NCBI GenBank assembly: GCA_020628375.1
Contig: JAHDFD010000023.1
Span: 1 to 64,000, forward strand
DNA: 64,000 nucleotides
Direction of reading: 5' to 3'
Origin: Chitinophagales bacterium
GTDB taxonomy: Bacteria; Bacteroidota; Bacteroidia; Chitinophagales; UBA2359
The position numbers and the translations under genes were made by a program. Of the stretch, positions 29,547 through 35,799 are shown in pieces. Each line of letters opens with the position of its first letter. The first letter of the stretch is position 1. The notes below the pieces were generated by a model. It made no database searches and was not told where the DNA came from. It was given only the letters and a program-made list of their open reading frames with translations.

Positions 29547-30599
29547 TTACAGTCTAAAATTTTCATATTCTGCTGTGTAAAGAAAATCATTCTCTTTTCT
29601 GATATGTTTTATACATTCAAATTTAGCATGCGCTTCCTGTTTGGTAATTACAGGAAAACCATAATGCGTATTTTTATATTTAAAAGCATCTTTTCCTTTT
29701 TCAAGCTGTCGTTTCCGAACGAACTCTTTATGTTCTTCGATTCGTTTTTTAATCAATTCATTCAGAAAGCTACTTCCGAATATCAGATTTTTATCGATGG
29801 TTGGATACAGGCTTTTATCCATTTCTATACCTATGCTATTCCGATTGCTGGCAATAGCTGCAAGCGTAGTTGTACCAGTTCCTAAAAAGGGATCCATTAC
29901 TGTATCTCCTTTCACCGAAAACATATTAATTAGTCGGTAGGGTAATTCAAAAGGGTAAGCTGCCGAACGTTTCCTCGTTCCCGGATCGGCAATCGTTTGT
30001 CGAGTACCACGTAAATCCCAAATATCTGAAAACCAAAGATTCCGTTCTTCCCAAAAATAGGCACTTTCTCTGCGGTTTTGTTTATTGGTTTCTTTAGAAA
30101 AAATTCGCTTCCCTCCTTTTCTGAAAACTAAAATATACTCATGTTCTAAAGTAACATAAGCCCCCGGAGGATACATTCCCGAACCCATGAACTTATTCGG
30201 TGCATTGGTTGCTTTTCGCCATAAAATATTGGGCATATTGCTAAAACCCATGTGCAGGAAAGTCTGAATAATACGTGTATGGTTGGAAAACAGTTGAAAC
30301 TCGCCATTCAGGGTTCGTGTTGCATCTCCGATATTGATACAGGCAAAGCCTCCCGGCTTCAATACTCTGTTACATTCATGCCAAACACCATCGAGCAATT
30401 TATGCATACGTTCAAACGCCTGAGTACCATAACCATTTTCAAGAAATTCGGCAATTACATTATCCTGAGCAGCCATCATTGCATCCCACATTTCGATCAT
30501 AGGATACGGCGGTGAAGTTACAAGCAGGTCAACACTGTGTTTTTCAAGATGACTTATCTTGGCCGCATTATCGAGTATGAGTTGATGTTGGCTTGTCAT
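29547..30599 (-). CDS. solitary beta-class DNA methyltransferase (probable N4-cytosine or N6-adenine)
   Basis: 350 residues. Catalytic motif IV TSPPY (28-32) is near the N-terminus and the AdoMet-binding motif I VMDPFLGTGTTTLAA follows near residue 240, the order of beta-class amino-methyltransferases. TSPPY is more usual for N4-cytosine enzymes. Motif-like stretches CNRVLKPGGFACINIGD and EHEYILVFRKG match the same group. No restriction endonuclease gene adjoins it: EamA lies downstream and unrelated short sequences upstream. It may be an orphan regulatory methylase or the relic of a restriction-modification system. Recognition sequence cannot be read from the protein. Confidence 0.85.
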   Translation of the reverse strand: MTSQHQLILDNAAKISHLEKHSVDLLVTSPPYPMIEMWDAMMAAQDNVIAEFLENGYGTQAFERMHKLLDGVWHECNRVLKPGGFACINIGDATRTLNGEFQLFSNHTRIIQTFLHMGFSNMPNILWRKATNAPNKFMGSGMYPPGAYVTLEHEYILVFRKGGKRIFSKETNKQNRRESAYFWEERNLWFSDIWDLRGTRQTIADPGTRKRSAAYPFELPYRLINMFSVKGDTVMDPFLGTGTTTLAAIASNRNSIGIEMDKSLYPTIDKNLIFGSSFLNELIKKRIEEHKEFVRKRQLEKGKDAFKYKNTHYGFPVITKQEAHAKFECIKHIRKENDFLYTAEYENFRL

Positions 30600-32764: not shown

Positions 32765-33344
32765 ATTCTTATAACAAATTATTACTTCTATAGTTGTAAA
32801 GTCAATATAATGGGGAACGCAAAGTTAGGTAATATTTAGCTCCTATAATTATACCAATTATTTTCTAATGGATTTTAAGAAAAGTTGATTTGATACACAC
32901 CTCAAATTCCTCATTCATTTTTACTTTCTCTAACGGAGTGTCCCTTTGCAAACCAAGCAACTTTGTATAAAATATAATTCACAAGCAAAGGACATTGACG
33001 TTCTTGTCAAAAGAACAATGATTTTGGTAGTTTTTGTAGCTGAGGTTAGCTTGTAAGGAAAAGTGTTAATGTTCCACTAATGTCAACTTTGATAGACATA
33101 GCAGAGGAAAATCCTATATACTTTAGATTTCAAACGTTTTATTTGTGATGTTTGTGTTTAATGTGAATCAAAGACTCTAAATATTTCTATAGTTAGTTGC
33201 AGACCACTATACATCTAATATAATTTGAACAGTAGCGACGAGGCAATGCCTCGTCGCTAACTCTATTTTTCAACCAACCAAACAGTTTTAAAGTAAAATG
33301 TATAGTGATGAGAGTTAGTTGACATGTTTATTAAACTTCCATAT
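32765..33344. other. 580-bp non-coding gap holding a MITE-like element
   Basis: No plausible gene. It contains an imperfect inverted repeat (TGTCCCTTTGC with GCAAAGGACA, about 32939-32993), a stretch at 33099-33120 that resembles 63055-63075 (GACxxAGCAGAGGAAAA), and the complete element 33205-33307. It marks one side of the accessory-looking gene at 33345. Confidence 0.6.
33205..33307. repeat. MITE-like dispersed repeat, complete copy
   Basis: A 103-bp element bounded by perfect 10-bp terminal inverted repeats CACTATACAT (33205-33214) and ATGTATAGTG (33298-33307). Its centre is a palindrome with 12-bp arms (33234-33245 and 33247-33258) and a one-base loop. The copy at positions 1-80 is the same sequence in the opposite orientation. 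Small size, terminal repeats and non-coding content fit a MITE; no transposase that could move it is present in the window. Confidence 0.75.
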
Positions 33345-35027
33345 CTAATCAAAAGCTTTTTCCAAAGTACTTACTTTATCCTTCTTTATTTTACTATAAA
33401 TAAACCAATTAAAGTATTTCACCATTTCTGGTAAAATTTGTGAAAGCTTTATTTCAGAATATTCATTTACATTATTTTTATGAAGCTTAGCATTTCTATA
33501 TTCATATGTTTCCTTAGCTATTGAGAAATAATATTCATTCCATATTGATTCATTCTTTTTTGAAAAAAGATTATCAATCACTTTTATGATTTCTAAAACT
33601 GCTGGGCTTTTGATACTTTTTTTATTCTTGTTTAAGAATTTATAAAATTCATTTTCATTATCAATAATATCGTATGAAATATCTAAACCTGTTTTTGAAG
33701 ACGAAACATTAAAAGGATGAAAAATATTGGATAACATTTGTTTTAAATATCGACGAACAGCGATTCTATTTTTAGTTTGGATTTTAGCAAAAGTTGATTG
33801 AATATTTGATTTAATTAAGGCCTCTAAAAAAATCCAGTATAAAGTGATGCTTTTATTATACTGCGCTTCCCATAATTTAGGTAAGTGAAATAAGTATTCA
33901 TCCTTTGCTTCTGTAGAAATTTCTGAAAGAACAGATATCATGTTGACATCATATTTATCTTGAGATAAATATTCTATATTAAGAAATGAATAAGAAAACC
34001 CACTAAATTCTTTTAAAGTTTCACAATACAAATAGTTTGACTTTTCCAAGTAAATATGTTCATTTGAGTTTGTACATTTTAATTTAAATTCAAGTAATTC
34101 TTTATTGATTATCTCAATTGCTTTTGAAACTGCAACTTTTTCATCAATATATTTCAATTTAATAAAGCATAAAATATGTTTTTTTCCTCTAAAAAAAATT
34201 TCTTTGACTTTCTTTTTATTGAATTCGTTAATAAACCCCTTTGTCAACATACTTTTTTTAACGCTACTACATATTTTATGTTTATAAGATAAAAACGTAA
34301 CATTATTTACTTTATAACAGAAATCACTTTCATCTCCTCCTACTGGGAAACAATTGTTAATTTTAAAGAAAAAGTATTGTTCTTTGAATCTTATTACTTC
34401 TTTTAATTTATAAAATTGATCCCGAAACAAACCTGATTCAGTTTCAACAATTATTTTATCCTGAAATATTTTTTTTAGTGATTCTTTTGAGTAGCCATCA
34501 AGTCTTAAATCAGCAACAAGTAAACTAGTTAATCTGTTTATATCCTTTTTATGGAATCTTAATTTATGCTTACATATTACAAATGAATATATACCATCAA
34601 CTAGTATATTTCTGAAGTTTTCTAGTAAGTCTCTCTTAACTAACTCTAAAACATTTTTAAACTCGTAAGTTTTGATTACCGTAAGTGATTGCCAAACTAT
34701 TGAGTTATTCGAGTTTACACTTCTTGATTTTTCATTAAAATGTCTCTCAACCAAAGGTTTCAAATCATTAAATGTTTCAAATGACTCTCTTAAATCTTCT
34801 ATAAATGGACGTAATTGATTTAAATGATTATCAATATATTGATTACATTTTTTAGGGTTATTCTTTAGCTGAAAGAGTATTTTATCAACTAAAGATAAAG
34901 GTGTATCTAAAGGATAAATTGGAAGAAAACCTATAATTTCATTTACAAAACTAAAATACTCCACGAAATAATTCATCTTTTCCCCTAAATTAGGATTGAG
35001 TTCATTATACATAAAATGTAATTTCAT
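33345..35027 (-). CDS. large AT-rich protein with C-terminal HEPN-like RX4H motif
   Basis: 560 residues, no signal peptide or membrane helix, rich in Lys, Asn, Ile and Phe; codon use is visibly more AT-biased than in neighbouring genes. The first 350 residues show mixed helices and strands with no recognised domain. The C-terminal about 180 residues are helical (ITLYWIFLEALIKSNIQSTF; TKNRIAVRRYLKQMLSN) and end with ETYEYRNAKLHKN, where R511 and H516 form the RX4H motif of HEPN ribonucleases. Large proteins of this type (ApeA-like and others) act in phage defence or abortive infection, so a defence role is plausible but unproven. It is flanked by mobile-looking repeats on both sides. Confidence 0.6.
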   Translation of the reverse strand: MKLHFMYNELNPNLGEKMNYFVEYFSFVNEIIGFLPIYPLDTPLSLVDKILFQLKNNPKKCNQYIDNHLNQLRPFIEDLRESFETFNDLKPLVERHFNEKSRSVNSNNSIVWQSLTVIKTYEFKNVLELVKRDLLENFRNILVDGIYSFVICKHKLRFHKKDINRLTSLLVADLRLDGYSKESLKKIFQDKIIVETESGLFRDQFYKLKEVIRFKEQYFFFKINNCFPVGGDESDFCYKVNNVTFLSYKHKICSSVKKSMLTKGFINEFNKKKVKEIFFRGKKHILCFIKLKYIDEKVAVSKAIEIINKELLEFKLKCTNSNEHIYLEKSNYLYCETLKEFSGFSYSFLNIEYLSQDKYDVNMISVLSEISTEAKDEYLFHLPKLWEAQYNKSITLYWIFLEALIKSNIQSTFAKIQTKNRIAVRRYLKQMLSNIFHPFNVSSSKTGLDISYDIIDNENEFYKFLNKNKKSIKSPAVLEIIKVIDNLFSKKNESIWNEYYFSIAKETYEYRNAKLHKNNVNEYSEIKLSQILPEMVKYFNWFIYSKIKKDKVSTLEKAFD

Positions 35028-35292: not shown

Positions 35293-35457
35293 AATGACCA
35301 GAACAGATGTTGCATTGGCTATAAAAACCAGCGTATTTCTTTATTCAAAGTCAACTAGCTTCGATATTTAATCAAATGAAAAACCTATCAGGTCAAATCC
35401 TAAAAAACGATACCATAAATTACAGTAATCCCTTTTATTACAAAGACCTGATAGGTT
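35293..35457. repeat. 165-bp direct repeat, copy A
   Basis: Matches 35603-35767 at an offset of 310 bases with four mismatches (about 97.6% identical by my count). The right half contains AACCTATCAGGTC and its complement about 60 bases apart (35381-35457), so each copy may fold into a long hairpin. Confidence 0.8.
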
Positions 35458-35602
35458 GAAGGTAATTCTGCCCCACGTTGGTTATTGCACTACAGCCTTT
35501 TCTTTGTTAGTTTCTATGAAATAATTCGAGTAACAGAGTAACATTATCAAGTTGTTAAGTTTATGGCTAATTGAACGGGTTGAAGATTTCAGCATTCGCC
35601 AA

Positions 35603-35767
35603 AATGACCAGAACAGATGTTGCATTGGCTATAAAAAACAGTGTATTTCTTTATTCAAAGTCAACTAGCTTCGATATTTGATCAAATGAAAAACCTATCA
35701 GGTCAAATCCTAAAAAACGATACCATAAATTACAGTAATCCCTTTTATTACAAAAACCTGATAGGTT
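35603..35767. repeat. 165-bp direct repeat, copy B
   Basis: Second copy of the repeat at 35293-35457, same orientation, 145 bases downstream. It ends 33 bases before the final codon of the RND gene on the minus strand, where its CCTGATAGGTT arm and the paired AACCTATCAGGT could act as the terminator of the efflux operon. Confidence 0.8.
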
Positions 35768-35799
35768 AGAGATAGAATGATTATTTAGCTATTCTTGTA

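Follow-up and report, generated by a model that had tools for sequence, protein, structure and literature searches.

The 560-residue gene described here is the founding member, in this work, of an unnamed protein family of Bacteroidota, and its product is predicted to be a single-protein HEPN ribonuclease. The gene lies in a 64,000-nucleotide stretch of DNA from a Chitinophagales bacterium (contig JAHDFD010000023.1), which is called the window below, and it has about 23 relatives in Bacteroidota. We consider it likely that the protein is a single-gene antiphage effector of the abortive-infection type, in which an N-terminal and middle part is joined to a C-terminal HEPN RNase, and the family is probably an unmodelled HEPN family that constitutes a single-gene defence system. 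The chances appear to us evenly balanced for the more specific proposal that this is an uncatalogued single-protein HEPN immune family of Bacteroidota, whose N-terminal part of ~360 residues, made up of the helical domain and a beta/alpha module, acts as a sensor of a new kind and activates the RNase upon phage infection. An abortive-infection role had been suggested in an earlier note made from the sequence alone; an active site under selection, the accessory nature of the gene, the defence genes found beside its relatives and the lack of a partner gene speak for this suggestion, while the outcome of the Foldseek search, which returned no significant HEPN match, speaks against it.

The open reading frame and its R511-N-A-K-L-H516 motif are present exactly as the earlier note gave them, and the gene is, as was also claimed there, more AT-rich than its neighbours: its GC content is 24.5%, against 36.0 ± 2.6% for the 48 remaining genes of the window (z = -4.4), and no other long gene there is as rich in AT. 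The claim that no other domain is recognisable in the protein also holds, the best Pfam match (E=0.25) being spurious and the PADLOC and NCBIfam scans giving no match. When 16 members of the family were scanned against the same three libraries, no HEPN or other convincing family match was obtained; the search against HEPN families that had been proposed as a check came out negative, with no HEPN Pfam model matching any of the 16 members, and PADLOC produced just three isolated weak matches, each to a single member. A sequence search of the PDB with the family profile returned noise only. The window copy lacks, in-frame, a segment of ~27 residues containing FPxP that is kept in nearly all relatives, and because of this absence it may be altered in function.

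The assignment to HEPN RNases begins with the motif. The RN-x3-H signature is found in 22 of the 22 members that reach the site, among 23 distinct members, the 23rd (L026) ending at a contig edge before it. Among members whose pairwise identity has a median of 22%, such conservation is, judging from the alignment, far beyond chance, and R, N and H are three of the few invariant positions of the family. HEPN RNases are defined by an R-x4-6-H motif with a polar residue following the R (PMC3710099), a pattern to which the RN-x3-H of the family conforms, and the survey of the superfamily describes R, N and H as catalytic in these enzymes (PMC3710099). The same survey reports a conserved acidic residue upstream of the motif, often within E-x3-[KR] (PMC3710099). 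E402 would be this residue: it is invariant in 23/23 members, but the x3-[KR] follows it in some members only. The HEPN RNase motif proposed earlier thus appears to be a strongly selected active site of the HEPN type. The coordinates of these and other features are collected in Table 1.

Table 1. Features of the 560-residue gene and its surroundings, in window coordinates
Feature	Position	Strand	Basis
Predicted single-protein HEPN ribonuclease gene, 560 aa	33345..35027	-	Intact ORF, ~23 homologues, 24.5% GC
Helical N-terminal domain, residues 1-210; conserved K17, F21, K49, Q53, C152, H159	34398..35027	-	AF2 model and alignment
Middle beta/alpha region, residues 215-347, candidate sensing or regulatory part	33987..34385	-	Secondary structure, full-length AF2 model
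Predicted HEPN domain, residues 366-560, C-terminal and all-helical	33345..33932	-	AF2 segment model; W398, E402, R511, N512, H516
Second invariant motif, codons W398-I-F-L-E402	33822..33836	-	W and E in 23/23
RN-x3-H HEPN active-site motif (predicted), codons R511-N-A-K-L-H516	33480..33497	-	22/22 relatives reaching the site
MITE-like element, 113 bp, terminal inverted repeats	33200..33312	.	Dispersed genome copies, target duplication
172-bp direct repeat, copy 1, between HEPN gene and RND gene	35293..35464	.	Only two copies in genome
172-bp direct repeat, copy 2, 96% identical to copy 1	35603..35774	.	Only two copies in genome
Solitary DNA methyltransferase (N6_N4_Mtase)	29547-30599	-	Family match

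The defence context of the family is supplied by the relatives. The genes adjoining them include those for a type IIG restriction enzyme (L022), an Avs2-like STAND protein whose N-terminus is that of HsdR (L030), an nSTAND3/nitrilase protein (L017), an AriA/OLD-type ATPase (L036), a ThsA-type SIR2 protein (L028), YhcG (L023) and a Bro-N protein (L024), and an AbiEii gene (L025) and a type I HsdR gene (L032) are found near two more. PADLOC matched 5 of 10 near neighbours, a set picked by hand, and 2 of 10 distal size-matched genes, mostly large ones taken from the same loci; of the two distal matches, one is a real HsdR and the other a false positive, DNA polymerase I. The enrichment of defence genes beside the relatives is suggestive and, on these numbers, not significant. 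In two near-identical genomes, the HEPN gene is preceded, at a distance of 20 bp, by a gene for a 1343-aa protein (L021:5949-9980 and L014:5047-9078); this protein has no match in Pfam or PADLOC and is possibly the product of another unmodelled defence gene. In the window, the gene does not sit in a defence island: its neighbours there are ordinary metabolic and efflux genes, and no recognised defence gene stands beside it. The solitary methyltransferase that had been noticed in the neighbourhood is present, and no restriction partner was seen for it; its orthologues are found in the same genus (76% identity) and in two members of the taxonomic family (54-61%), with weak matches or none elsewhere.

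No adjacent gene family recurs beside ~19 relatives, and for this reason the gene looks solo, with no obligatory partner. The same observation weighs on the alternative that the protein is a HEPN toxin belonging to an addiction module or a toxin-antitoxin pair, in which the small antitoxin, protein or RNA, has escaped recognition and defence is a secondary effect. HEPN toxins are common in toxin-antitoxin systems (PMC3710099), and one relative does lie near an AbiEii-type gene; a recurring neighbour is nevertheless missing, proteins of 560-617 aa are far larger than minimal HEPN toxins, and the conserved N-terminal two-thirds would fit built-in regulation. We therefore regard this alternative as unlikely, if the best placed of those considered.

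The distribution of the family is patchy, as the check for presence or absence in related genomes made clear. The gene is found in 1 of the 20 genomes of the window's own taxonomic family, in 10 of 398 genomes of the order by profile search and in 4 of 395 genomes of the phylum; six-frame searches of the order found the family in 8 genomes, that of the window included. Single-sequence scans of viral contigs and genome contigs with the 560-aa protein gave no relatives, and neither did direct tblastn against plasmids and phages. With an alignment or profile as the query, 16 loci were recovered across the genome collection, in Chitinophaga, Flavobacterium, Neolewinella, Aequorivita, Saprospiraceae and others, and the alignment query also found one member on a predicted viral contig (L037), equal in length and search score to the copy of Chitinophaga rhizosphaerae (L029). 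The members of the family are 560-617 aa in size, and in one relative (L017/G392) the gene is interrupted by a frameshift or stop. In each of the 19 loci long enough for the comparison, the GC content of the gene is below that of DNA at a distance greater than 3 kb, by a median of 8.6 points. The patchy low-GC distribution and the broken relative are marks of a mobile accessory gene and support the view that it moves horizontally. Two distantly related proteins, L135 in G340 with 638 aa and the motif RNMEVH and L134 in G242 with 622 aa and RNLHFH, suggest a second, broader subfamily. A Bacteroidota-type member adjoining a DUF2911 gene was also found on contig CAKZMZ010000606.1 (L024), labelled Thalassobius (Alphaproteobacteria), which is probably mis-binned.

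It could also be proposed that the protein is an accessory HEPN RNase serving cellular RNA processing or the stress response rather than defence, as the metabolic and efflux genes around the window copy would allow. The absence of the gene from the other 19 genomes of the family, its rarity in the order and phylum, its low GC in every locus and the defence genes beside many relatives all run against such a role, which we hold to be improbable.

The full-length AF2 model, built from a 15-row alignment, has a mean pLDDT of 80.4 and a pTM of 0.81, and the C-terminal segment 366-560 modelled alone is all-helical with a mean pLDDT of 90.4. In the full-length model, R511 and H516 lie towards the end of a helix spanning residues 490-517, which is followed by a helix at 522-550. 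Foldseek searches with the whole-chain and C-terminal-domain models returned no significant match to HEPN or other proteins, Csm6 HEPN structures appearing among the noise at E of 5-7, so that the structure prediction proposed as a check gave a confident all-helical C-terminal domain and no significant HEPN match. We infer the HEPN fold of this domain, a four-helix bundle in the superfamily, from the motif, its placement, its conservation and the confident helical model. The further alternative that RN-x3-H serves another purpose than a HEPN active site, the protein being an all-helical one of another fold in which RN...H is kept, e.g., for ligand binding, agrees with the failure of Foldseek to find a solved HEPN protein and of HEPN Pfam models to match any of 16 members, and it is the least probable of the alternatives, given that the motif spacing and the polar residue after R fit the HEPN definition (PMC3710099), that the model places the motif between two long helices, that the upstream acidic residue is invariant and that R, N and H belong to the few positions that never vary.

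Among known systems, Tha, ApeA and DS-11 would be the closest to the family in logic. Tha (PMC11087260) and the CBS-HEPN protein DS-11 (PMC13092281) are established cases of the single-protein logic. Tha-1 of Staphylococcus phage 80alpha is a proven single-gene HEPN defence RNase with the motif R265NSIMH270 (PMC11087260). In hhalign comparisons calibrated against 127 neighbouring control proteins, it was the best match outside the family, a weak one (P=0.0073), aligned in register at its RNSIMH motif over 27-29 columns around the motif only; no similarity to Tha-1 was found outside this region of ~27 columns, and thus no full-length homology. Like Tha, the family consists of single proteins with an unrecognised N-terminal part and a C-terminal HEPN-type RN-x3-H, and several members carry RNSIMH, RNSMIH or RNSMMH. 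Unlike Tha, which has 301 aa, its members have 560-617 aa, and whereas the Tha gene is carried by a phage and overlapped by an antisense inhibitor, such an arrangement was not seen for the window gene. ApeA (HEPN_Apea, PF18739) shares the logic of a single-protein HEPN defence with a large N-terminal domain. At a threshold of E<=1, its model nevertheless matched none of the 16 members, and it found nothing in genome G000; hhalign against two proteins of the ApeA model stayed at noise level, and the ApeA N-terminal domain is mostly beta strands (PMC3710099) whereas residues 1-210 here are all helical in the model. DS-11, compared by description, also combines a regulatory domain and a HEPN nuclease within one protein (PMC13092281), and it is set apart, again by description, by its CBS domain, none having been detected in the family with Pfam. 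The lactococcal abortive-infection (Abi) proteins AbiF/AbiD, AbiJ, AbiU2 and the C-terminal domain of AbiA likewise contain HEPN, some of them acting solo and with varied N-terminal domains (PMC3710099), but their Pfam and PADLOC models match none of the 16 members scanned.

HEPN RNases act as dimers and cut RNA without a metal ion. By analogy with other HEPN proteins, the dimer of the window protein would be held inactive by its N-terminal part until residues 1-346, i.e., the helical domain and the beta/alpha region, sense a phage component or an infection signal. RNA of the host, the phage or both, plausibly tRNA or mRNA, would then be cleaved by the pair of RN-x3-H motifs where the subunits meet, and translation and phage growth would be halted. 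As in abortive infection generally, the arrest or death of infected cells would protect the population. RNase activity, dimerisation, autoinhibition, the infection trigger and growth arrest are all transferred here from those proteins. If the proposal is true, an uncatalogued family of immune RNases, with an N-terminal sensing part that looks unlike those of known HEPN systems, has been missed by profile-based tools, which have no Pfam, NCBIfam or PADLOC model for it, in a phylum where defence systems have been sampled less thoroughly. Two catalytic residues and homologues that include some in cultured Chitinophaga and Flavobacterium make the family easy to test.

The repeats flanking the gene are weaker evidence than the earlier note took them to be, and neither kind shows the gene to be mobile. 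The direct repeats exist; they measure 172 bp rather than 165 bp, and instead of bounding the gene both lie on its 5' side. Each contains the inverted pair AACCTATCAGGT / ACCTGATAGGTT, and they are tandem-like and unique to this intergenic space. As ends of a gene-carrying element they were rejected because neither lies on the 3' side and the genome contains no further copy. In an empty-site comparison with a same-genus genome, the hydrolase orthologue was found to have unrelated DNA upstream. The MITE-like element on the 3' side of the gene is real and slightly longer than the 33205-33307 first assigned to it. It has a palindromic core, GCGACGAGGCATTGCCTCGTCGC, and is bracketed by a 9-bp target duplication, AGTTAGTTG (33191-33199 / 33313-33321); as a self-contained, dispersed element with its own target duplication, it was rejected as the mover of the gene. 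About 30 related copies are present in the same genome, one of them 100% identical and with its own 9-bp duplication, and the MITE family is accordingly young. The start of this contig (C7:1-85) is itself a MITE copy, several other contigs carry copies within a few hundred bases of their first base, and the element may be a cause of breaks in the assembly.
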